A stretch of 64,000 bases of DNA from Miscanthus floridulus (taxonomy: Eukaryota > Streptophyta > Magnoliopsida > Poales > Poaceae): contig NC_089598.1 in the NCBI RefSeq assembly GCF_019320115.1, forward strand, positions 32,445,983 to 32,509,982, read 5' to 3'. Shown piece after piece: positions 1 through 31,821 of the stretch (position 1 is its first letter; each line of letters begins with the position of its first letter). Both the position numbers and the translations under genes were made by a program. Under the pieces are notes generated by a model. The model had not been told where the DNA came from, searched no databases, and worked only from the letters and a program-made list of their open reading frames with translations.

Positions 1-2157
1 GCATTCTCTTCTACTACTAATATGTTAAGTTAACCTATCTTATGAAATGCTTCAAAGATACACCAAAGCTTTACGATTTTTTTAATCACACTTAAAGCGA
101 CACTTGCTTAAACCCTAATTAATAATAGGTTTGAATAGCAACCTATATTTCTGATGCTCCTAAAAATCTGAGAAAATTACAGTAGCATACTACTACTCTA
201 AACAGACTACCATAAAAATTTCATGGCATTTGGATAAGTAAACCATCCTACACAAAAATGACAAGCTATAGCATGAAAATGAGCATGAAATTACTTTGTA
301 CTATGAAAAGTGTCAAACAACAGAATTAATATTTTTCCTAAGTTCTTCATAGCATATAATGACTGTACAAAAATTACCGCATGCATGTTTTATACAAAGT
401 TTGCTCTCTATCAAAAATAACAAAAATCAGCCCTTAAAGGCACTTGAACTACACCTCCAAAGTTTTCCACAGCACATGCATGAAACATATTTTCCTTAGG
501 AAGTACATGACATAAGAAGATTAACAAACTTGGAATCATATTTTTCTGAAGCCTATATATTTTTCTACATATTTTTCAAGTTATCAGCAATATTCAAGAT
601 TGAATAAAATCCTATAGAAAAGTATATCAAAATGACATGCAATAATTTTTTCCAAGTAGATCTGGTAATAAGGAACCTAGAAAAATTTGTTTCAACAAAT
701 TTGGAGCAACTTTGAGTATCCAAATATTTTGCAAACCATTTCTGTTTTCAAATAAAAATGAATAAATGGAAATCAATTCTTCAAAACTCTACTGGGCCGG
801 CCTGCGGATGAACTAGCCCATGGCCACTTTCGGCCTGCGCGGCCCGAGCGAAAAGGAGGAGCGCGGCGGCCTGGCAGGGCTTCGGCCCACGGCCGCTTTG
901 CCTGGCCGGCTTGGCCAGCCGAGGCGAGGCGCCATGCCGGGGCGCGCGCTGGCGCGGCGGCGCGGCTCGGCCAGCGGCCAGCGGCCGTCTCCGGCCACGG
1001 CAACGCCAGAGAGCGAGCGTAGGAGACGCGCGAGGAGAAAGCGAGCTCGGCAAGGTCGCTATGCGAGGCTGGAGAGGGAAGGAAAAGGGCGCTCCACGGC
1101 GGCCGTGCATGGCGGTGCCATGGACGCCGGTGGCGAGGCGCGGGGAGGTCCGACCTGTGCTCGGAAGGCGGAGCAAGTTCGAGCACGACTTCGAGGAAGG
1201 CGAGGCGGAGCTCGGGGCACGAGGAATTGGAGAATGGTGCGGTGGTGCTTGAGTTGGACGCCGGCGGAGCTCGAGCGCGGCGACGGCGGAGCTCGGAGCT
1301 CGCGGCTGTGGAGGAGAAGGGGAGGAAGTGCAGGGCGCGAGTGAGCGAGTGCGCGGACACCGGCAGGTGAAGGCGGGCGTGTGGGCGCAGTGCCAGGCCA
1401 CGGCTGCCGCGCGGCGGGCGACGCCAGCGCAGAGCGGCCACGCGGCGGGCAAGCTCTGCCACGGCCGGGACGCGCGGCGCGCGGGAGGAGAAGGCAGCGC
1501 GCGGTGGACTGGGCCGCGGCGAGCCAGCTGGGCCGAGGCAGGAGCGGGTGAGCGGGCGACGGGCGCGGAGGCAGGCCGGGCCGCCTGTGCGGCTGGGCCG
1601 AAAGCGAGGCGGCGGCCCAGGAAAAAGGAAATGAAGATTTTCAATTTATTTTCAAGAAATTTTTAAATGCCACCATTCAAACATTATTTTGAGCAAGAAA
1701 ATGACCTCTTTTGAAAATGTACCAAAAATGAAAATTGCTTAGAATTCAATTCCCTACAACTTTGCTTTTATAACCAAAGTCCAATCCTATCTAGATTTTA
1801 AATTATAGAATCAAAGTTAAATTTTAACTCAAAACCCTAATTTTTGGAATTTACTTTAGAAGCAAAATTTTGAATTAATTTAAATACAAACCTTGCTCCA
1901 AAAATTGTGCTAAACCATTCTAGATGATTTACAAGCCTAACCAACAATTTCTACTCAACTAGCAAGCAAGAATCAGGGCAAAACAACTCTAATAAGTGTA
2001 TGCATCATTTTCTTTTCACAAACATGTTTCGTATGTTTCGAAGAAATGTTTCAGTTGTTATATGCAAGATCATGCATGTAGGATTAGGATGCTTGATGAT
2101 GCATGACAGGTATGATTTAGCAGTGCCTAGATGTAGGCATAACACCGGGGTGTTACA
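1..2157 (-). repeat. Element A 3' LTR (partial)
   Basis: This matches 10572-12728 almost base for base. On the minus strand the LTR begins TGTAACACCC at 2157, directly after the polypurine tract. Only the first 2157 of about 3904 bases are in the window. Visible differences from the 5' LTR are single transitions near 743, 1020, 1380 and 1531. The stop codon of gag-pol lies inside its first bases. Confidence 0.95.
790..1625. other. GC-rich block inside element A 3' LTR
   Basis: About 835 bp of very GC- and CpG-rich sequence is set sharply inside AT-rich LTR sequence on both sides. On the element strand it is C-rich with many CTC/CCG runs, like grass 5' UTRs and first exons. Long ORFs occur on both strands because stop codons are rare at this composition; none resembles a known protein. 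An equivalent block sits at a similar offset in the LTRs of element F. Confidence 0.75.
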
Positions 2158-5100
2158 GCCCTCCCCCCTTATAAAAATCTCGTCCCGAGATTTGGGTTAC
2201 GAACCATTTGTTATAAAATTCTTCATAAGCTTTTTGTAGATACTCTCCTGTTTCCCAAGTTGCATCTCCCTCATCATGATGATCCCACTGTATCTTGTAA
2301 GTTTTCACCACACTATTCTGAGTAGCACGTTCCTTCGTGTCTAACACTCGGACTGGTTGCTCACGATACACCAAATCTGATTTGAGTTGAATACCTCGAG
2401 GTTCTATTCTTTCCTCCGGAACACGCAAGCATTTCTTGAGATGTGATACATGGAAAACTGGGAAAACTGTACTCATTGTCTCAGGTAACTCTAGCTTGTA
2501 GGCTACCGGACCTCTTCGTTCCAAGATCTTGTATGGTCCTACGAATCTTGCGGCAAGCTTTCTTCGGATTCCAAACCTTTTCTTCTTCATTGGTGTGACT
2601 TTCAGATAAACATAATCACCAACTTCAAACACAAGGGGTCTCCTTCTTTTGTCTGCATAGCTTTTCTGACGTGATTGGGCAGCTTTCATATTCTGCTGAA
2701 TAATATGAACTTTCTTCTCGGCTTCTTCTACAAAGTCAATGCCATAATACCTTCTACCACCAGGCTCGATCCAATTCACTGGTGTTCTACATTTTCTGCC
2801 ATATAAAGCTTCGAATGGGGCCATCTTGATGCTTTCTTGATAGCTATTATTATAAGAAAACTCAGCTAACGGTAACCATGACTCCCATGATCCCTTGGAA
2901 GACAATACACAGGCTCTCAACATATCCTCCAAAACAGCATTTACTCGTTCAGTCTGACCATCTGTCTGAGGATGATAAGCGGTACTGCGAATTAAACTAG
3001 TTCCTAAGCCTTTGTGTAAATGTTCCCAAAAATGAGCCGTGAACTGTGAGCCTCTATCAGATATTATGGTCTTCGGTATACCATGCAACCTCACAATTTC
3101 TGCGATATACTTCTCGGCATATTGAGGTGGTCGATAATCTGTTTTGACAGGCAAGAAATGAGCGGTCTTGGTAAGACGGTCCACAATTACCCAAATCGAA
3201 TCATGTCCTTTTTGAGTAGTGGGCAAACCCGTGATAAAATCCATACTGATATCGTCCCACTTCCAACTAGGGACTGATAAAGGTTGCAACATACCGGCAG
3301 GTTTCATGTGAATGGCTTTCACTCGACAACATGTGTCACATCTGACAACATATGCTGTAATTTCTTTCTTCATTTTGGTCCACCAATAGCGAGATCTTAG
3401 TTCTTGATACATCTTACTACTTCCGGGATGGATAGATAGCTTAGACAGGTGAGCTTCATCCATGAGTTTATTCCTAAGCTCTCGATCCTTGGGAACCACA
3501 AGACGGTTGTCAAACCACAACACGCCCTGTTCATCCACTTTAAAGTGTTGAGACGGCTTTTCTTTTATTTTCTCTTTGATGTGGAATATTCCCTTGTCAG
3601 TTTTCTGACCTTCTATTATCTTACTCTCCAAAGAGCAACTAATCTGAATACTATTTAACACAGCAGGATGCATTAGATCGAATCCATCTTCAAATAATGG
3701 CTGCACAGTCAAGTAATGTGACTTCCTGCTCAAAGCATCTGCCACTACATTGGCTTTGCCAGGATGATATTGCACATTCAAGTTGTAATCTTTGATCAAT
3801 TCCAACCATCTACGTTGTCTCATGTTTAGCTCTGGTTGGGTAAAGATATACTTAAGACTCTTGTGATCCGTGAAAATATTGCACACATTACCAAGTAGGT
3901 AATGTCTCCAAATTTTTAGGGCGTGCACAACTGCAGCAAGTTCAAGATCATGTGTTGGATAGTTGATCTCGTGCTTTCTCAATTGACGTGATGCATAAGC
4001 TATGACTCTCCTTTCTTGCATAAGAACACAACCCAATCCAGTCTTTGATGCGTCGCAAAACACATCAAATGGTTTCTCTATATCCGGTTGTGCTAGAACA
4101 GGAGCAGTGGTCAACAGTTTCCGCAAAGTGTGGAAAGCTGCTTCACACTCCTCTGTCCATACAAACTTGTGATCCTTCTGTAGGAGACTCGTCATCGGTT
4201 TGGCGATCTTTGAGAAATCTGGTATAAAGCGACGGTAATAACCCGCTAGTCCTAAGAAACTTCTAATCTCAGGAACTGAGGTCGGTGCTTTCCAATTCAT
4301 AACTTCTTGCACCTTACTTGGATCGACTGAAACTCCATTCTCTGACAGAATGTGACCAAGGAAAGGGACTTCCTTCAACCAGAATTCGCATTTGCTAAAC
4401 TTAGCATACAATTGATGATCTCTCAGTCTGGTCAAGACAATTCTCAGATGCTCTTCGTGATCTTTCTCATTCTCGGAGTACACCAGAATGTCATCGATGA
4501 ATACTACCACAAACTTATCCAATTCTGGCGTGAAAACTGTATTCATCAAAAACATAAAATATGCGGGAGCATTTGTCAAGCCAAAAGACATGACAAGATA
4601 CTCATACAACCCGTATCTGGTGGAAAATGCAGTTTTTGGTATATCCTGTGGCCTAATCTTGATCTGATGATAACCGGATCTCAAATCTATTTTTGAGAAC
4701 ACCTTGGCCTTGGATAATTGGTCAAACAGAACATCAATATGTGGCAAGGGATATTTATTCTTGACGGTCACAGCATTGAGTGGCCTATAATCTACGCACA
4801 TTCTCAACGTGCCCTCTTTCTTTTTCTTCACAAACAAAGCTGGACATCCCCATTCAGACTTGCTTGGCCGAATAAACCCCTTTTTCGACAAATCTTCTAA
4901 TTGCTTCTTTAGCTCAGCTAACTCGTCGGGAGGCATCCGATAGGGCCTCCTTGAAATCGGAGCTGTTCCGGGGACTAACTCAATTCCAAACTCAATCTCT
5001 CTATCTGGCGGAAGACCAGGTAGCTCATCCGGGAATACGTCCGGGAATTCACACACTACCGGAATCTGATGAATAGGAATGACTGCCGTAGCGCATGTAA

Positions 5101-6685
5101 CACTTATAAGGTCTGTTCTTCGAGGCAATGGTACTTGGAAAGTACCCTCACCCAGGGGATCCTTAAGGGTAAGTACTCGACCTCCAGTATCTATGACTGC
5201 TCCCCAATCCTTCATCCAATTCATCCCTATAATGACATCCAAGACTAACCCAGGCATAACTATCAAGTTCACTCGGAACTTTCTGCTACCTAATTCAAGG
5301 GTTGCCCCTCGAACCATCCGGTTGGTCAAAACATCAGCCCCTGCTGAACTTATACGGTAACCATAACCCAATTCTGTGCATAGTTGTTCATATTTCTGTG
5401 CAAATGCTTGACTCATAAAAGAATGCGATGATCCGGAATCAAATAGAACAACTGCAGGGTTTTCATTGACAGTAAACTTACCAGCAGTGACGGGCTCTCC
5501 CTCTGGAATTTCATCCACTATTGTACTGTGCACTCTAGCATTATAAGTCTGCTGCTTCTTCTTGGGCGGGTATGGACAAAACCTCGAGAAATGACCGGGT
5601 TGATCGCAGTTATAGCAGGGTCCTCTCACTGTCCCGGCAGATCCCACAGCTCCCTTGGAACTGCCTTGTACCGCAGTTGCGGCTGCTTTGTTGGGCTGTA
5701 CTGCCATCTTGTACGGCTTTTGAGGTCCGCGGAAATTCTGGCTTCTTGGCTGAGGTGGCCTGAATCTAGCGCCAGGTGCCGATGGGCGATAAGGAGGACG
5801 ACCTCCCATAGGTGCTCTAGCTTGAGACAGCCCACCTTCGAAGGCTCTCTTGCGTGTCTTGGCTGCGGTGCTAGCGTTGTTATTCTTCTCCTGCTTCAGA
5901 CAGTCACTGATGAAATCGTTGAATCTGACGCGGTTGTTGGTACCAACATGCTTCATCATTTTTGGATTGAGACCCCTCTTAAAACTGGCTATTCTCTTAG
6001 CATCTGTGTCAACCATGTCGGGAGCATAGCGACATAAGTTGTTGAAAGCATGCAGGTATTGCGTCACGGTCTTGGTACCCTGGTTCAATGCCAGAAACTC
6101 TCCCAACTTCATCTCTGTCAGCCCGGGTGGAATATAGACTCCGCGGAAGGCCTCAGCAAACTCTCTCCAAGAAATCTGAGCATTTGGAGGGAAGGTGGTG
6201 CGATGGTGCTTCCACCACATTCCCGCCGGTCCTTGCAATTGAAGTGCAGCATACTCCGTTTTTAGCACCTCAGTCATTCTCAACACACGGAATTTATCTT
6301 CCATCGTGTTGATCCATTCCTCAGCATCAAGTGGCTCTGTTGCTTCCTTGAAGACTGGTGGCCTGGTGTCCATGAAATCTTTGAAGCTGCTATATTGGTT
6401 CACTCCCATGCCACCACCTTGATTGTTACCACGTTGAACGTTGTTGGCGATGGTTCTGAGAAGATCCTCCATGTTCTTCTGAGATTGTTCTGTGTTGCGC
6501 TGACTCCCGAGTAGCTGTGCGAGGAACATTTCGGGGGTAACCGGGGGCGGAGGTGGCAAATGCGGTTCATGGGGAGGTTCATTGTTGTTGCTGTGGTTTC
6601 CACCACCACCACCACCAGTCCCTGCACCGTTGGCACCGGGCTCAGCGGCCTCATACGTGGTTCGGCGAGTGTTTGTCATCTGCAT
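2153..6685 (-). CDS. Gag-Pol polyprotein of element A with C-terminal chromodomain-like module
   Basis: This is a single uninterrupted frame of 1510 codons. It holds a gag domain (roughly residues 100-270), a CCHC zinc knuckle [14 protein letters not shown] (about 357-370) and an aspartic protease with LFDSGSS (about 416). Reverse transcriptase has [10 protein letters not shown] near 729, and RNase H has DVFCDAS near 875. Integrase has an HHCC zinc domain (about 1083-1120) and a D, D-35-E triad: D in MDFITGLP, D in IISDRGSQ and E in GQTERVN, with 35 residues between the last two. The C-terminus (about 1435-1490, including a DATWE motif) resembles a chromodomain, which in chromoviruses steers integration to chromatin. 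Translation may start at the third codon, ATG at 6679, because a splice-acceptor-like TGCAG precedes it. The frame runs through the polypurine tract and stops at the TAA in the first bases of the LTR. All catalytic motifs look intact, so the element may be autonomous. Confidence 0.95.
2158..2193 (-). promoter_or_regulatory. Polypurine tract and adjoining hairpin of element A
   Basis: On the minus strand a purine run (AAGGGGGGAGGGC) abuts the TG start of the 3' LTR and would prime plus-strand DNA synthesis. Just upstream, 2175-2193 is a perfect 8-bp inverted repeat, AAATCTCG and CGAGATTT, around a 3-base loop. Both parts lie within the gag-pol coding frame. The same hairpin and tract occur in element F at 36553-36588. 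Confidence 0.85.
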
Positions 6686-7046
6686 TTTTCAGCAACAAGT
6701 ATGATTGAGTGAAGCTGTAATAATTGCGAGTGAGGGAAAAATTATGCCATACTGAATTTACTGGAGAGAATAAATTCATACAATAAAAACAGAGGCACAA
6801 CAATCTCAATTCCAATTAAAACAACAGCACTTAATCGAGTTACTTAAACGGCAAACATCGCGTCCATACAATCACATTGCCAGTATACATACACTGGACT
6901 TTTTATGCGTTCAGATATCGCATTCGAAAATCAAGTTCCAAACACATGCCAATTCTCATACGTTCGAAGCAACATACGATAGATTACATGCCAACAAAAG
7001 AAAGGTCATCGCGACAATACCTAGATACTAGCGCAAAGCTACTAGC
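6680..7046 (-). other. Spacer between ORF1 and gag-pol with splice-acceptor-like site
   Basis: This 367-bp non-coding spacer ends in a TGCAG just before the ATG at 6679. A short conserved stretch (AGTAAATTCAGTATGGC) also occurs upstream of gag in element F around 32095. I infer a 3' splice site that would give gag-pol its own spliced mRNA. Confidence 0.5.
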
Positions 7047-8036
7047 CTACTCCTCGGGGCCATCGTCGGGATCGGAGACATCACCATCGCCTCCAGGTGA
7101 AACTACAGGCTCATCTTGGTTGTCGTCGTCGATGTCCATGCCAGCGGCGTTTGGTGGAGCATATGGGCCAACCCCATTGTAGAGCGCGTGAAACTCCTCG
7201 TGCAAGTAGCCGTTGTATTCCTCTAGCTCATCGACTCTCTGCAACAGAAGGTTTCTTGCGTTCCAGGCTTCATTCCTTTCCTGGACCAACTGTCCAATCA
7301 TGCGGTCTGCATTGTTGTTGGCTTGAGTCAACGTATGCACTCGCTGCATAGCTCTATCACCTCTTTCAACCGCCTGATCTCGCTGTAGATTCATATCAGC
7401 CAACTGCTCCTGCAAGCTAGCTATATCTCGAGCCTGTCTCTTCTTCTGCTTCTTCCCTTTGAGCTTATCCTCACTACGCAAGCCAGTCAAAGTCCAGTAG
7501 GTACTCTCAAGACCCTCATACGCTCTGATGGCGGCGAACATAGCACTCATTGCCTGGTTGTCGCTAGCCTGTCCCTCAGCTGGACCTCTGACCAATGCGC
7601 TTCCTTCAGGCTGAACCCAAATGGCATCGCGGGGATCATCCCTAGGAAAAGTACCAGCTAAAGCTGCTGCAAGCTCACTGGGAAATCTGCTCATAATGTC
7701 CCTGATGACACGGAAGGCTGCTCCCTCTGCACCCTCAGCTGGAGTGCGACCCTCAAACTCCAAATGCCAACCATCCCAATCTGGAGCATCACCAAGAGCA
7801 GGAACCGTGATCTCCACCACTGCAAGTCCATCATCTGCTAACTGGCTCTCATTCCAAGAGTACACCGGCTCTTGACCCTCTGGGTACCCCACATCATGGA
7901 GCACTCTCCAAAGCAAAGTCGGCATGCCAAACTCGCTCAAGAAGGTGTCCGTGGTGCGGTGCTCCCTCAGGGCCAACGGACGTCGGGGTGCTCTTCCTCC
8001 GGTGGACTTACGGGCGGTCTGCTTCGTGCGGGCCAT
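7047..8036 (-). CDS. ORF1 of element A: histone H3-tail mimic with coiled coil and acidic C-terminus
   Basis: This is a 329-residue open frame upstream of gag-pol on the same strand. I chose the ATG at 8036 rather than the in-frame ATG at 8099 because CTACAG, a splice-acceptor-like sequence, precedes it and because the protein then starts MARTKQTARKSTGGR. After Met removal residues 1-13 equal histone H3 exactly. K14 and K18 are arginine, APR at 15-17 is kept, and 18 of the first 21 residues match. No histone fold follows. Next come a novel globular region (MPTLLWRVL at 38-46, about 40-195), a basic KLKGKKQKKRQAR patch, a coiled coil (about 205-290) and an acidic tail (MDIDDDNQDE to the end). 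A homologue lacking the H3 tail occurs in element F. The coding capacity is clear; the role is unknown. Possibilities are recruitment of H3-tail writers or readers, or binding by the element's own chromodomain. Confidence 0.85.
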   Translation of the reverse strand: MARTKQTARKSTGGRAPRRPLALREHRTTDTFLSEFGMPTLLWRVLHDVGYPEGQEPVYSWNESQLADDGLAVVEITVPALGDAPDWDGWHLEFEGRTPAEGAEGAAFRVIRDIMSRFPSELAAALAGTFPRDDPRDAIWVQPEGSALVRGPAEGQASDNQAMSAMFAAIRAYEGLESTYWTLTGLRSEDKLKGKKQKKRQARDIASLQEQLADMNLQRDQAVERGDRAMQRVHTLTQANNNADRMIGQLVQERNEAWNARNLLLQRVDELEEYNGYLHEEFHALYNGVGPYAPPNAAGMDIDDDNQDEPVVSPGGDGDVSDPDDGPEE

Positions 8037-8824
8037 CTGTAGCAAAAGTTCTCTTATTACCTCGGGGAAACATATTTTAGGTGATACAACTTTTATCAAA
8101 ATGAGATAATCAATTTATAAGGGGAGGTATGCATGAGATGAATGAGATGCACAAGTACATGATGTATGTGCGGGTCGTACGTTCTCACAAACTTAGGAAA
8201 TAAATAATTTCTAACGACGAATTCGGTGGCATAACAACGATCTCTCATTTACGTAGCTAATACGTTCTACACGATAGCGTTGTTATGTACCTGCAGAAGA
8301 TTCATTTCAGCCCAATTCCCAATGAATGCATAAAAGCAGTAAAATTTTATCTACACGCTCTACACGAATCCCCAGATACGTGTACAACGGTAGTAACTAC
8401 CCGAATCATCATCCTAATGATGGCATCGCCTCCACAGACGGAAGACCCTCACATGAGATACCTTGGTAAAACATGCGTAGAACATGTAATTACTCCAGTA
8501 TCATATAAGCATTCACCCTAGATCGGCGGTGTATCCGATCATGCTCTCACAACTCACACTTACCGAGGCGTAGAGGCAATTGATCCATTCATTACCACTC
8601 AAACAAGTGGCACTCATACAATAGCACGCCGTATGAGCGACGAAAGAGAAATATGATGCAAGAACCCCGGTCAGTACTTAATTAAGCCACCTAAAGTCCT
8701 TAACTGGGCATAAAGGATATGATCACTGGCACACTTTATAGTTTTAAAATCACGTTTTCCAATGCCTTTTTGTTTTAAATACACTTGTGAACAGTAACAC
8801 GCTAAACCATGCTCTGGTACCAGC
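8037..8824 (-). other. Element A leader with tRNA-iMet-type primer-binding site
   Basis: The 5' untranslated internal region lies between the LTR and ORF1. At 8811-8822 the minus strand reads TGGTACCAGAGC, one base from the plant initiator-tRNA-Met complement TGGTATCAGAGC, two bases after the LTR end. The rest is AT-rich with no supported gene and ends with the acceptor-like CTACAG before ORF1. Confidence 0.85.
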
Positions 8825-10257
8825 TGTGGCAGAACCGACCAATTATACGAAATTAAGTAAGAAAATCATCCGCCAGAGCAGACGCTTTAGCAAACTTAAG
8901 CCCGTATAACCCGGTAGTCCGTGAAATCACGAAGGATTTCCAAACCAACTCATGTCCCAGCCATGATCGTAATAAGTTTAGCGGTCACCAATCACATATT
9001 ACATAAAAGTTTGCATAACAGATACATCAGAGTTTAAACATAGTTATTACAAAACAAGTTCGAATAAAAAGTAGCGGAAGTCATTTGTTAAAACCACACA
9101 CTCACACGGAGTTCAAATATAGTGCCAGCGGATGATCGTCTCCAACAAAAGCATTAGATGAGACGTAAGGAATGACCATGCCCATGGTCCTAAGCATCAC
9201 CCATCGCAGGATACAGGCAGTTGATACAGTAGCCATAGTACATCTGCCCATCTGCAACAAGTGGGAATAAAACCCTGAGTACGAGAAGGTACTCAGCCAG
9301 ACTTACCCGACATAACCGAAATTAATGACACCAAGGATTATGAAGGGCTTTATAGTGGGGTAGCTGACTCATTTGCAAAAAGAAGCATTTTTAGCAATTC
9401 AAGAACCTGTCTAAAAGCATTATTGCCAAGTTAATTATTATTAACCTGTCAACTAGGTTTGCACCTATGCTAGAGTAAACATGTGATTAAGCAGAGAATG
9501 ATAACCAATGATCATTAAACAACTTCCATACTGTCATATTCACTATAACTGTCCAAGTGTTCCATAACATTTACTACGATGAAGTAACTCAAGTCAAGTG
9601 CTCACTATCCAGGAGCGATGGCGATTCGAATCGATTCCTAACCAGCTGGTGATTTATTCCTTACACAAACCTCACTCACCCGCTAAAGTGAGATATTGAT
9701 CACCGAGTCAACTTTCCAGGAATCTCGAGTTTGCCAGGAACCACATGTACCCGGGGGCCGACCGACTGCACTTTGGTCTTATCATCCCGCCCCCGTGTCC
9801 TACCACACCTGCTCTGGTACAGTGCGTTGCGGGCAATCTACTCGGCCCGAAAAATCTCCCAGCTTCGCGGTCGGAAGGTACTTTATTCCGGCCAGCTAAA
9901 TGTAAGGCATGCGTTCAACATGACTCGAGGCCCAACAACGGTCGGTCCTTAATCGACACAGACGGAAACACTACAGTCCAAAACTCTGCAAGTCTCCGTC
10001 CGGTCTCAACTTCATTTAACACTTAGTTATACTATGACTTCATAGTCATCCAAGCAGATCCAGGTAACCACCTATAGCTCGCAGGTGACAGGAAATCACC
10101 CGACTTCTACCGGTCTAAGCCAGCTAAGCATTGACTCGACTGCGGATACCAGGGTAACAAGGATATAGTATAACAAAGGTAAACAAGGTATAATGCAGCA
10201 ACGGTTGCAAACAACTCCTAAACGTAATGCATCAAATAAAGTAAAGCATTTAATTAA

Positions 10258-10442
10258 TTAATTGCAAACCGGGAGAAAAATGCTCCGGGGCTTGCCTCTC
10301 TCGAAGGAGCTCGGACGGTGATCGGGGCACTCCGGAAGTTCCTCAACGTCCTCCTCGTTGACTTCTGGCACTTCCTGCTGCTGCACCTTGAGCTGCTCCT
10401 CTGGCTCCTCAGGTATGACGACTGGGTTCTCGGTTTGCGATC
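10258..10442 (-). CDS. LTR-encoded small acidic peptide (ELPECP exon), element A
   Basis: A putative exon in the LTR begins after an acceptor-like CATACAG (acceptor G at 10443) and runs to a stop at 10258. The continuous ORF reaches back to an ATG at 10503. The protein has a Glu/Gln-rich variable part, then EELPECPDHRPSSF (10303-10344) and GKPRSI. Elements F's LTRs encode the same residues at 28381-28422 and, with one change, at 39753-39794. Between A and the F 5' LTR, 9 of the 14 core codons differ and all the differences are synonymous, which points to selection on the protein. The function and any upstream exon are unknown. I recognise no family. Confidence 0.6.
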
Positions 10443-11360
10443 CTGTATGATGCAATGCACGTAAGTGATTATGCAAACGGTGCATCGAAGGAGATGAATG
10501 CAATGGATCTGTTGAAATGCAAGGTAGTCAACATCATCTAAGAACTATACTACAAATACATGTCATCTACTGCATTCTCTTCTACTACTAATATGTTAAG
10601 TTAACCTATCTTATGAAATGCTTCAAAGATACACCAAAGCTTTACGATTTTTTTAATCACACTTAAAGCGACACTTGCTTAAACCCTAATTAATAATAGG
10701 TTTGAATAGCAACCTATATTTCTGATGCTCCTAAAAATCTGAGAAAATTACAGTAGCATACTACTACTCTAAACAGACTACCATAAAAATTTCATGGCAT
10801 TTGGATAAGTAAACCATCCTACACAAAAATGACAAGCTATAGCATGAAAATGAGCATGAAATTACTTTGTACTATGAAAAGTGTCAAACAACAGAATTAA
10901 TATTTTTCCTAAGTTCTTCATAGCATATAATGACTGTACAAAAATTACCGCATGCATGTTTTATACAAAGTTTGCTCTCTATCAAAAATAACAAAAATCA
11001 GCCCTTAAAGGCACTTGAACTACACCTCCAAAGTTTTCCACAGCACATGCATGAAACATATTTTCCTTAGGAAGTACATGACATAAGAAGATTAACAAAC
11101 TTGGAATCATATTTTTCTGAAGCCTATATATTTTTCTACATATTTTTCAAGTTATCAGCAATATTCAAGATTGAATAAAATCCTATAGAAAAGTATATCA
11201 AAATGACATGCAATAATTTTTTCCAAGTAGATCTGGTAATAAGGAACCTAGAAAAATTTGTTTCAACAAATTTGGAGCAACTTTGAGTATCCAAATATTT
11301 TGCAAACCATTTCTATTTTCAAATAAAAATGAATAAATGGAAATCAATTCTTCAAAACTC

Positions 11361-12196
11361 TACTGGGCCGGCCTGCGGATGAACTAGCCCATGGCCACTT
11401 TCGGCCTGCGCGGCCCGAGCGAAAAGGAGGAGCGCGGCGGCCTGGCAGGGCTTCGGCCCACGGCCGCTTTGCCTGGCCGGCTTGGCCAGCCGAGGCGAGG
11501 CGCCATGCCGGGGCGCGCGCTGGCGCGGCGGCGCGGCTCGGCCAGCGGCCAGCGGCCGTCTCCGGCCACGGCAACGCCAGAGAGCGAGCGCAGGAGACGC
11601 GCGAGGAGAAAGCGAGCTCGGCAAGGTCGCTATGCGAGGCTGGAGAGGGAAGGAAAAGGGCGCTCCACGGCGGCCGTGCATGGCGGTGCCATGGACGCCG
11701 GTGGCGAGGCGCGGGGAGGTCCGACCTGTGCTCGGAAGGCGGAGCAAGTTCGAGCACGACTTCGAGGAAGGCGAGGCGGAGCTCGGGGCACGAGGAATTG
11801 GAGAATGGTGCGGTGGTGCTTGAGTTGGACGCCGGCGGAGCTCGAGCGCGGCGACGGCGGAGCTCGGAGCTCGCGGCTGTGGAGGAGAAGGGGAGGAAGT
11901 GCAGGGCGCGAGTGAGCGAGTGCGCGGACACCGGCAGGTGAAGGCGGGCGCGTGGGCGCAGTGCCAGGCCACGGCTGCCGCGCGGCGGGCGACGCCAGCG
12001 CAGAGCGGCCACGCGGCGGGCAAGCTCTGCCACGGCCGGGACGCGCGGCGCGCGGGAGGAGAAGGCAGCGCGCGGTGGACTGGGCCGCGGCGAGCCAGCT
12101 AGGCCGAGGCAGGAGCGGGTGAGCGGGCGACGGGCGCGGAGGCAGGCCGGGCCGCCTGTGCGGCTGGGCCGAAAGCGAGGCGGCGGCCCAGGAAAA
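11361..12196. other. GC-rich block inside element A 5' LTR
   Basis: Second copy of the block at 790-1625, with a few transitions. On the element strand it lies about 530-1370 bases from the LTR start, upstream of the AT-rich intron-like stretch and the ELPECP exon. That order (GC-rich, AT-rich, short exon) resembles a grass gene with a GC-rich first exon and a long first intron. No TATA box is evident nearby. Confidence 0.7.
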
Positions 12197-12728
12197 AGGA
12201 AATGAAGATTTTCAATTTATTTTCAAGAAATTTTTAAATGCCACCATTCAAACATTATTTTGAGCAAGAAAATGACCTCTTTTGAAAATGTACCAAAAAT
12301 GAAAATTGCTTAGAATTCAATTCCCTACAACTTTGCTTTTATAACCAAAGTCCAATCCTATCTAGATTTTAAATTATAGAATCAAAGTTAAATTTTAACT
12401 CAAAACCCTAATTTTTGGAATTTACTTTAGAAGCAAAATTTTGAATTAATTTAAATACAAACCTTGCTCCAAAAATTGTGCTAAACCATTCTAGATGATT
12501 TACAAGCCTAACCAACAATTTCTACTCAACTAGCAAGCAAGAATCAGGGCAAAACAACTCTAATAAGTGTATGCATCATTTTCTTTTCACAAACATGTTT
12601 CGTATGTTTCGAAGAAATGTTTCAGTTGTTATATGCAAGATCATGCATGTAGGATTAGGATGCTTGATGATGCATGACAGGTATGATTTAGCAGTGCCTA
12701 GATGTAGGCATAACACCGGGGTGTTACA

Positions 12729-14606
12729 CTTTTCTCGCTTGATAGAGACGTTTTTGGCGCTCAACCTTTGGCTCACCACGTCACCGAGATCCACCCAGAG
12801 AGAGCGGACCACCTCGATGTCCTCATCCACCTTCTGCTGAAGGGCCATGGCCCTACTCTCGGCCTTCCGCCTGAGGTCCTGCTCCATCTCTAGCTCCTTC
12901 AGGACCTCACCGGCCTTCTCATTAGCCGCGGCATTCCTCTGCAGTAGCTCATCTCGCTCCTTTCGGAGCCTGGCGATCTCCTCCTCATCCAGCTTTGACC
13001 TCGCTGACAAATCCTCAAACATCCCGTGGGCCTCCTCCATGTCCTGACGCGCCTGGGCCTCCCGCTCCTAGGCGGCAGCAAGCTGTGCGGCCATATCTGC
13101 TCGCAGCCGGGCCTCCTCAGAAAGCCGATCCCACTCCGCCTTTTGCTCGTGGAGGAATCAGGATTTATTCCGACTACGAGCAACAAGAATCTGAAGAGGA
13201 AGAAGACTGGTATTAGAAATATGAAAACACAAAAACATGCGAAGAAAGAAGAAAACCAAGCGAATACCTGGGTAGTAGGAACAATGATTTCACGTAGGGC
13301 TCCTCTGGCCTGGTCCAGGGCATCCAGCATGGTTGAGATCCCGACGTAAAGACCCTCCCACTCCATGCTCTCGGCATGATCTTCGAGCGAGAAAAGAGCC
13401 GACGTCGGATCCTAGGCGGCCATCCATTGGAGCGGCGGCTCCCCCCGCACGAGGGAGCGGCTTCATCCCGACAAAGGGGCCGGGGGCGGCTCTCTCCTGA
13501 CCCTATGCGGCACCACCGCCACGCTCGAGGACCCTCCGACCGGACCCTCCTCCATCTGGGTTGCTTCGAGCATCATGGGCGGATCCACCTGGGCCCCTAG
13601 TGGCACGGACTGCACTGCGCCCTCAAGCACCACCATGGCGGCGTCCGACTGAGCCTAGCTCAGCGTGGTCGCAACCACCTCCATCGGCATCACCCGACCC
13701 TTCGGTCGGCTGTACCACGCCCACCATGAAAGATGCCTCCTGCTTGGCAACCACCGAGGGCGTGGGCGCCACCATAAGCGCCATCGGATCGACCAACATG
13801 GCCCCAACATCAGCACCGCTCCTACCCGAAACAGGGGTGATGCCGGGCAGCACCATCCGTCCTGCCTGTATGGTGAGGCTCTTTTTGGGCACCAGCCCCA
13901 GGGGGTGACCCATCCGCAAGAACCTACACAAAGGTAATAGCCATTAGGTCAAAATAGAAATGGAAAAAGAATGAAAATAGGGGAATCAGCATCTTACGCT
14001 GACACCCTCGGCCGGTGGAAGCGTTTTGTGGATGGATCCCCAGATCCCTGCCCTGACTCATCTGGGCGGGACCATTTTGAGCCTGCCCCCTGCTCCGAGG
14101 TAGGGGGGCTCATCTCCCTCACCTCATGGGGCGCAGCACTAGAGCCGCTCCCCTCCATCGTCTCATGGGGCGTGGCACAAGAGCCACTCCCCTCCACCAT
14201 CACCTTGGGGTCAGCGGCGGTAGGCCCACCTTCCCCCATCCACTGATCCTTGGTCGGCAAGCCGTGCAAAGCGGCAGACTCTCCGGCCTCCACCGACCTC
14301 ACCGACTCACTTCCCTCCACGTGGAACGGGAAGGGTCCCTGCACGGACGGGTGGGCACTTGTCAGTGTGTCCTCATCCTCCAGGATGCCCCAATCCACGT
14401 CGATGACTACCTCGTCATCATCATCATCGTCATCGTCGTCATCATCACTGCTCATGTCCTCTCCCCAATTCCGTGCCTCCTATTTCAGTCGTTTCTTCTT
14501 CTTCATCTGCTCCCTTGCTTTCTTGTCCCGCTCGGCCGCGAGTCGATTTGTTGCCGCCACGGCCTTGTCCTTTGGCAGCGGAACCGGACTATCTTTGAAG
14601 ACTAGC
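12729..14606 (-). pseudogene. Element B antisense gene, downstream exons (acidic and coiled-coil parts), truncated by element A
   Basis: This continues the antisense gene whose first exon is at 20278-21186. After the C insertion the frame encodes a basic KKKKRLK stretch (with a TAG), then an 11-Asp run and acidic sequence (about 13998-14455). It ends at a donor-like CAGC|GTAAG at 13998/13997. A further exon runs from an acceptor-like TTTGTGTAG (exon start 13923) to a donor-like CCCAG|GTATTC at 13268/13267, and contains at least one stop. The last piece (to 12729) is a Glu/Lys/Arg-rich coiled coil with EEEIARLRKERDELL. It is then cut by element A. Exon edges are inferred from GT and AG sites. 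It is decayed but still recognisable, with the family order of domain, acidic linker and coiled coil. Confidence 0.6.
14602..14606. other. Target-site duplication of element C (left copy)
   Basis: CTAGC at 14602-14606 is repeated at 20185-20189, exactly flanking element C. A 5-bp duplication is the usual product of a Ty3/gypsy integrase. Confidence 0.85.
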
Positions 14607-30750: not shown

Positions 30751-31821
30751 ATGGTCACGCCCGTGTTTCCTCCTTATAGCAGTACCTTTTTGGACCTAGT
30801 TTGGTATGCCTACCTTGCTCTGGAGGGTGCTAAGCTTAGTTGGGTACCTAGAGGCGCCCCGTTATACATGGGTGCAGACAGTGCCATTTGGTGATGTGCC
30901 ATGGTACAATGTGGCCTTGGTGGTGCCGCAGAACCCCATGAGACCGCTGTGGCGTGGGTGGAGCACCGAGTCTGATGGGCAAAGCCCATGGGAAGCCACG
31001 CAAGTTGCTGCTCTTGATGTGCTTATGGACATAGCATAGAGTTTCAGAGATGAATTAGGTGGGGGGACCAGCTGCATCCATTCCCCTAAGTGGCTCCTAC
31101 AGATGCTAAGTGGACTCAAGAAGCTGGCCATGCCTTGGTTCAAGGCCATGGTGAACGTGTTCAAGAGCGACAATGTGGAAATGAGTGCTATGATGGCCGG
31201 CTTGAAGCTCTGTCGAGTCATGTAGGACACCCTCTCTAGTGTATTAGAAGAAGCTGGCAAGGCAACTGGCAGCCTAGCGCAAGTTCAGGATTGCGTGCTC
31301 GCAAGTATCGTTGTAGGGTGGAAGCATGTGGGCAAGCTCAGCTAGAGGTAGATGAGATTTGGGGCATTGCAAATTATTGCCTGCAACAGTGGGGGCAAGC
31401 AGCACGCGAGAGAGATGAGCTTCATAACCATCTTATGAACCTCACCATAGAGAGAGATGAGGCAGTATAGGAGTTGGACCGTGTGACCCATCATAGAGAT
31501 ACAGCCCTAGAGTTGGCAGAAGAAAGGCATCAAGGATGGATCATGGCTAACCACAATGCTTTTCAAAGGGAGAATGCACTCTAAGAGCAGCTAGAGGAGC
31601 TTCAGGTTGAATACCATCACCTAAACAATCACCTATTTCCTATTCCTCAGCCCATTCCAAGGTATCCTAATGTGGGTGGACCTCAAGTGATTAAGGCCGA
31701 TGAAGAAGAAGAGGACATGCAGATGAATGTCAATGCAGCTGAACCTGCAAATGAAGAGGAAGAGGATGACCCTGAAGAAGTCTAGGGCGTCTCCGATGTG
31801 GACAGTGACCACTTCAACTAG
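30751..31821 (+). pseudogene. ORF1 homologue of element F (no H3 tail), degenerate
   Basis: It begins CAG|ATG at 30751, as ORF1 of A does, but the N-terminus reads MVTPVFPPYSSTF and has no histone-like residues. One frameshift later MPTLLWRVL, VGY and PLWRGW align with the body of A ORF1. A Glu/Arg-rich coiled-coil region (about 31380-31630) and an acidic end (DEEEEDMQMN, NEEEEDDPEE, to the stop near 31819) follow. Several TAG stops interrupt it. So this extra gene is ancestral to both elements, while the H3 tail is found only in A. Confidence 0.7.

Follow-up and report, generated by a model that had tools for sequence, protein, structure and literature searches.

The first open reading frame of a young LTR retrotransposon of Miscanthus floridulus begins with a near-identical copy of the N-terminal tail of histone H3. 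The element, element A, lies at the start of the window (the whole 64,000-nucleotide stretch of DNA analysed here), and the frame in question, ORF1, lies upstream of its gag-pol frame. The tail stands at the very start of ORF1, it has survived in relatives whose bodies have diverged, and between two groups of copies it shows a clear excess of silent over replacement change. What might such a tail be for? The preferred reading, in which our confidence is about evenly poised, is that a host H3 tail would have been captured early and then kept by selection as a mimic for the proteins that read and write H3, its likeliest role being that of a multivalent anti-silencing decoy.

ORF1 is a 5' extra ORF of 329 amino acids (7047..8036, minus strand), and the mimic comprises its residues 1-24 (7965..8036, minus strand). 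The N-terminus reads MARTKQTARKSTGGRAPRRPLA and the extended start MARTKQTARKSTGGRAPRRPLALREHR; positions 8036 to 7947 of the window, on the minus strand, read MARTKQTARKSTGGRAPRRPLALREHRTTD. The original prediction held that, after removal of the initiator Met, 18 of the first 21 residues are those of H3 and that K14 and K18 have become arginine. Both statements are correct: residues A2-A22 of ORF1 agree with H3 at 18 of 21 positions, and K14R and K18R are joined by a third change, Q19P. The identity takes in K4 and ARK9S, the kind of likeness by which a histone mimic is recognized in sequence. Among PDB chains, 131 distinct ones match ORF1 at E <=1, the best 60 of the 131 being all H3 or H3-type, with a top match of 26.6 bits (E 3e-5). 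When an alignment of relatives is used, there are 193 PDB matches, the best 60 of which are again all H3 or H3-type, and the top match rises to 36.4 bits (E 4e-8).

No histone fold follows the tail, as had been predicted, for Pfam gives no PF00125 match in ORF1; this also disposes of a histone pseudogene. The C-terminal half is coiled-coil-like (residues 196-286; 7179..7451, minus strand) and holds an LHEExH motif common to distant tail-bearing relatives, with coiled-coil Pfam matches that are weak and under the cut-offs. For the 5' extra ORFs of maize and sorghum, a weak fold likeness to a dsRNA-binding protein has been described (TM 0.35-0.37; PMC11728184). Pfam searches up to E 10, with filters that drop most matches above E 0.1, gave no DRBM family match for P0001, P0016, P0042, P0053, or P0019, and dsRNA binding by ORF1 is left here as that weak likeness from the literature.

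Element A is 14.47 kb long (1..12728, minus strand, its 3' LTR extending ~1.75 kb past the window start) and is bordered on both flanks by the 5-bp target site duplication AAAAG (12729-12733). The 5' LTR (8825..12728, minus strand) has 3,904 bp, and the 3' LTR is cut by the window (1..2157, minus strand). Over 3,903 aligned positions the LTR pair has 3,893 matches, 10 mismatches and one 1-base indel. This divergence of 0.26% dates the element to ~0.1 My at an assumed substitution rate of 1.3e-8 changes per site and year. The primer binding site TGGTACCAGAGC, which we take to be that for initiator tRNA, adjoins the 5' LTR (8811..8822, minus strand). Long open frames of up to 293 aa run through the G+C-rich part of both LTRs (773-1662 and 11344-12216) and are probably without coding meaning.

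The gag-pol ORF (2153..6679, minus strand; 1,508 residues) contains, according to Pfam, gag, CCHC, protease, RT, RNase H, integrase, and a chromodomain. The last is of group II type (2210..2353, minus strand; PF00385 E 0.01, under the curated cut-off), and the alignment shows that Trp alone is kept out of the three residues of its aromatic cage. Such a reduced cage is usual in plant group II chromodomains, the partner of which is given as unknown (PMC3350952). The order gag-PR-RT-RH-INT with a weak C-terminal group II chromodomain is that of the Tekay/Del chromoviruses, and a sense ORF between the 5' LTR and gag, together with LTRs >3 kb, corresponds to the ORF0/5'aORF of grass Tekay elements. 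Judged by its domain order, long LTRs and extra 5' ORF, element A thus appears to be a Tekay-like chromovirus. The long LTRs and the extra ORF point more closely to the Retrosat2 group, Retrosat-2 being a member of the Tekay clade (PMC6317226).

The ORF1 ATG is the first in its frame, the 27th codon upstream being TAA, with no other ATG in between. The 788-nt leader (8037..8824, minus strand) contains 21 ATGs, which makes plain scanning to ORF1 unlikely. The splice-acceptor-like sequence CTACAG abuts the ORF1 ATG (8037..8042, minus strand) in 86 of 88 copies, the other two having CTATAG, and TGCAG abuts the gag ATG (6680..6684, minus strand) in 27 of 28 copies, with TGTAG in one. An acceptor-like CAG at both start codons suggests that ORF1 and gag may each be reached via splicing. 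A donor scan of the leader gives CGGTAAGT at 8563 as the best candidate splice donor. In the 30 copies of older groups described below, a simple pattern search for the gag start found it in none.

In the genome searched (2.68 Gb in 2,420 contigs, 19 of them >85 Mb), at least 122 places match ORF1, every one from residue 1 (12,801 first-look candidates, 122 scored), so that an artefact of assembly or of a single copy can be rejected. The 88 best-scoring of the 122 were examined, the window copy included, and hence represent the youngest kind. That other copies keep the tail in frame, as predicted, is seen in this family A: MARTKQTARKSTGG is unchanged in 81 of the 88, and the remaining seven differ at A1, R2, T3, A7, or R8. 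K4, Q5, T6, K9, S10, T11, G12, and G13 are invariant in all 88. Since these copies are young, their likeness alone tells little about selection, and changes within the tail are too few to test (3 replacement to 3 silent among shared changes, 5 to 3 among singletons). Codons 25-329 are more informative. There, shared changes divide into 31 replacement and 81 silent, against 57 and 45 for singletons (p 3e-5), a contrast which indicates that ORF1 as a whole is under purifying selection.

Older copies were obtained through the ORF1 body. With P0016 as the query, 123 genomic places were found, and the best 30 of the 123 were sorted by eye into group B (24), C1 (2), C2 (2), and D (2). All 30 are interrupted by one or more internal stops. 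L118 has a frameshift in its tail and was left out of group B, leaving 23 copies for comparison. Between these and the window copy, 9-13 (median 12) of the 13 residues from 2 to 14 are identical, while the body is only 44-49% identical. K4, K9, S10, and T11 are kept in 23/23, Q5 and R8 in 21, R2 in 20, and A7 and G12 in 18 each. For codons 2-13, the pooled comparison of group B with the window copy gives a pS of 0.41 and a pN of 0.033 (n = 23), and eight of the 23 copies are without replacement or stop. In L105, a clean copy picked by hand and among the most favourable, 5/10 synonymous and 0/26 nonsynonymous sites have changed relative to the window copy (Fisher p 7e-4). The predicted excess of synonymous over nonsynonymous change in the tail therefore holds between groups A and B. 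Together, the copies and this silent excess support the central claim of the original prediction, that selection has apparently maintained a mimic of the H3 tail in an ORF of a retrotransposon. Chance likeness to H3 was rejected on the PDB matches, the 88 copies and the comparison of groups A and B.

Groups C and D are less clear-cut. Against the window copy, residues 2-14 are identical at 11 of 13 positions in L091 and L096, 9 in L092, 10 in L093, and 12 in L103, with 2 to 4.5 replacements in ~26 sites (4.5 in L092 and in L093). C1 and C2 share only 7/13 tail residues while their bodies are 84% identical. Decay after insertion is a contributor to the replacement changes in these copies, and the group C and D results, as read from the sequences, are evidence against perfect constraint on the tail.

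Proteins related to ORF1 extend the picture. A search with the whole of ORF1 gave 17 relatives. P0010 keeps the H3 tail with one change, G13E, P0016 has an altered tail, MARRRLTAHKSTGGRVPRHQLAER, which includes K4R and T3R, and the tail of P0018 is MARTKQTAHKSTGGRAPRHQLAPR. The other 14 of the 17 are database calls that start within the body or with unrelated sequence, and the tail is not visible in them. Searches with the tail itself, in which a length limit excludes ordinary H3 and which thus yield relatives biased toward the tail, brought further coiled-coil-like proteins that bear it (P0019, P0034, P0042, P0053, and P0055-P0060) and a shorter match, P0027. P0019 belongs to another grass, Aristida adscensionis. 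Likeness to ORF1 is seen in the C-terminal halves of some of them: BLASTP against a set of 15 proteins, with composition correction off and a coiled-coil bias therefore possible, aligns P0060 with ORF1 at 34% over 134 aa (E 1e-17) and P0042 at 23% over 332 residues, tail included (E 1e-10). Among nine lineages, seven of them found through their tails, identity is higher in the tail (62-96%) than in the body (16-46%) for every one of the 36 pairs.

Conservation residue by residue emerges from a tabulation of 19 lineages or copies. In this set, 13 of whose tails were found or chosen via the tail, A1, K9, and G12 are present in all 19, T6 and T11 in 18, T3 and K4 in 17, R2 and A7 in 16, R8 and S10 in 15, and Q5 in 13. 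The six tails found through the body have K9 in six, K4 in five, and T3 and R8 in four each. P0059 carries both K4R and R2H. A7P occurs in three of the 19, a change that should weaken binding by HP1-type chromodomains. The K18 position is Lys in 0/19. The claim that K14 is arginine stands for all 13 GG-type tails among the 19 but does not extend to every tail: the single copy L114 has Lys at H3 position 14, and a second tail type, TGPKGVPRHQLAPR, carries Lys near it. This second type is also present in the Miscanthus genome (L120), where P0057 as the query gives 299 matches from 150 scored places; among the matches listed, two N-terminal rows cover residues 1-75. In viral contigs, two stretches fit a pattern for relatives, of which none was confirmed.

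The tail searches also turned up H3 tails on other kinds of protein. P0020, P0023, and P0036, the two named of which are from Xylaria and Podospora, combine an H3 tail start with a precomputed F-box domain and have no PF00125. Other non-histone proteins that start with the tail are P0021, P0029, P0033 (Talaromyces), and P0048, the named ones being fungal, and the fungal P0044 and P0051 (Oleoguttula, Cryoendolithus). P0022, P0024, P0026, P0030, P0031, P0032, and P0041 have H3 tails on unrelated bodies, with an AAA domain in P0030 and, by eye, a SET-like C-terminal end in P0031. Pfam found nothing above cut-off in P0021, P0022, P0026, P0031, or P0032.

The tail is not universal among related ORFs. 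The genome holds a numerous set of P0042-like ORFs (122 matches from 123 scored places), of which many are open, and in none of the 122 does the match begin before query residue 21. Some related ORFs thus seem to do without an H3 tail, as a tail that was present would, we think, have matched. In the window itself, an old decayed relative (30788..31719, plus strand) matches ORF1 from residue 32 on, with no tail match.

Where did the tail come from? The genome has 18 places that encode the full query H3 protein unchanged. Several of its H3 genes split by introns have a first piece that comprises residues 1-25 (at five places) or 1-26 (at two), and ORF1 ceases to resemble H3 near residue 24, about at the edge of these pieces. 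Other split genes have first pieces of 1-30, 1-32, 1-37, and 1-76, and in several of them a later piece overlaps the first, which leaves the exon edge loosely defined. The tail, ~21 residues at the protein start, looks captured rather than convergent. More tentatively, the capture may have been of H3 exon 1.

The preferred reading, a multivalent decoy, can be set out in steps. An ancestor of the Tekay-like chromovirus would have acquired the N-terminal tail of host H3. Once the initiator Met is removed, A1-R2-T3-K4 would form a free N-terminus like that of H3, K4 and K9 of the mimic would be acted on by host enzymes as they are in H3, and the coiled-coil C-terminus would present several tails together. 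The ORF1 protein might then occupy host H3 readers and writers, most likely SHH1, SUVH4-6, and CMT3, and thereby weaken the silencing of element A. SHH1, a possible recruiter of Pol IV, is described as recognizing methylated K9 where K4 is unmethylated, CMT3 as reading K9me2, and the H3K9 methyltransferases SUVH4-6 as writing most K9me2 (PMC7617993). A coiled-coil protein with many free K4/K9 ends and no K18 should be a good multivalent ligand, which is why the decoy is favoured.

A bolder version makes K18 decisive. The maize CMT3 orthologue ZMET2 is reported to bind K18 as well as K9me2 (PMC7617993). With the residue sensed by the ZMET2 BAH domain replaced by Arg, His or another residue in the mimic, binding might occur without full activation of the enzyme. 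In a large grass Tekay lineage, the host-derived tail of an oligomeric protein would be methylated by the plant at K9 and sequester SHH1 and CMT3, the lack of K18 making it a true decoy. We regard this full version as speculative and, on balance, doubtful.

The main rival to the decoy is chromatin targeting, in which the tail would dock a nuclear complex of the element on chromatin via H3 readers and so steer integration or retention. We consider it possible but rather unlikely. The same H3 readers would do, and a fungal chromovirus is known to be directed by its chromodomain to H3K9-methylated chromatin (PMC3350952). Furthermore, a group II chromodomain short of two of its three cage residues might make an extra chromatin contact useful. 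The separation of ORF1 from gag-pol counts against this reading.

Could the tail be merely a basic arm for nuclear import or nucleic-acid binding, derived from H3 by happenstance? The tail is certainly basic, and H3 tails bind importins. A nuclear location has moreover been predicted for grass 5' extra ORFs (PMC11728184). However, this leaves the kept A1, T3, T6, T11, and G12 unexplained, as well as the low pooled pN (0.033, against a pS of 0.41) between family A and the 23 group B copies, and it strikes us as improbable. The original prediction had also offered the chromodomain-like C-terminus of the element's own integrase as a binding partner, in cis or trans, by which assembly or integration would be regulated. 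One element does encode both tail and chromodomain, but a cage that keeps just Trp makes this very unlikely, and tails with A7P occur as well. Least credible of all is a passive relic, by which the captured stretch of H3 would do nothing today and would be alike merely through the youth of its copies: family A is indeed young (LTR divergence 0.26%) and some related ORFs show no tail, but the tail is kept in the protein of another grass genus (P0019) and in a diverged group with silent far above replacement change, a contrast that already strains this reading.

Grass Tekay elements are already known to carry a 5' extra ORF, and the H3 tail on one appears to be the new aspect. Such ORFs have been described in Retrosat2, RIRE3, RIRE8, FRetro3, maize Tekay, and sorghum Sb7, where, like ORF1, they are separate and upstream of gag; Retrosat2 and FRetro3 also share long LTRs (>3.2 kb) with element A (PMC3485330). 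The maize and sorghum ORFs have a long C-terminal helix, in which they may be likened to ORF1 (PMC11728184). In contrast, the descriptions of these ORFs, on which the comparison is based, report no H3 tail. The word "histone" occurs nowhere in the main texts of PMC3485330, PMC11728184 or the extra-ORF review PMC7264820. A literature search at the level of titles and the starts of abstracts, mostly in journals outside subscription, found no LTR retrotransposon reported to carry an H3 tail.

Viruses provide the closest parallels in kind. Influenza H3N2 NS1 (ARSK), SARS-CoV-2 ORF8 (ARKS), adenovirus VII, and the HDV antigen are described as H3 mimics, non-histone proteins that each have a short H3-like stretch and engage chromatin factors of the host (PMC10208167). 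Their motifs have ~4-5 residues, however, whereas ORF1 has ~21 at the protein start and belongs to a plant LTR retrotransposon. Ty3/gypsy elements of orchids likewise carry a host-like regulatory domain as an extra ORF, an AlkB m6A demethylase (PMC9289625). That ORF is an enzyme acting on RNA, whereas in ORF1 a peptide imitates chromatin and is probably too small to be caught by domain profiles. The anti-silencing proteins of VANDAL elements are extra proteins encoded by a transposon against silencing, as proposed for ORF1 (PMC11728184). VANDALs are DNA transposons, unlike the LTR element A. To our knowledge, their anti-silencing proteins are not histone-like.

In plants, the silencing of retrotransposons depends on how K4 and K9 of the H3 tail are read. 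That an abundant family displays just this tail, and retains it as the body diverges, would suggest an arms race over the histone code. The tail suggests a testable function for a known yet unexplained class of extra ORFs and would widen histone mimicry from viruses to transposons. On the practical side, tail-bearing proteins could mislead mass spectrometry or antibodies directed at the H3 tail. Should the K18-less decoy be true, a retrotransposon would for the first time be known to counter host defence with a histone tail.
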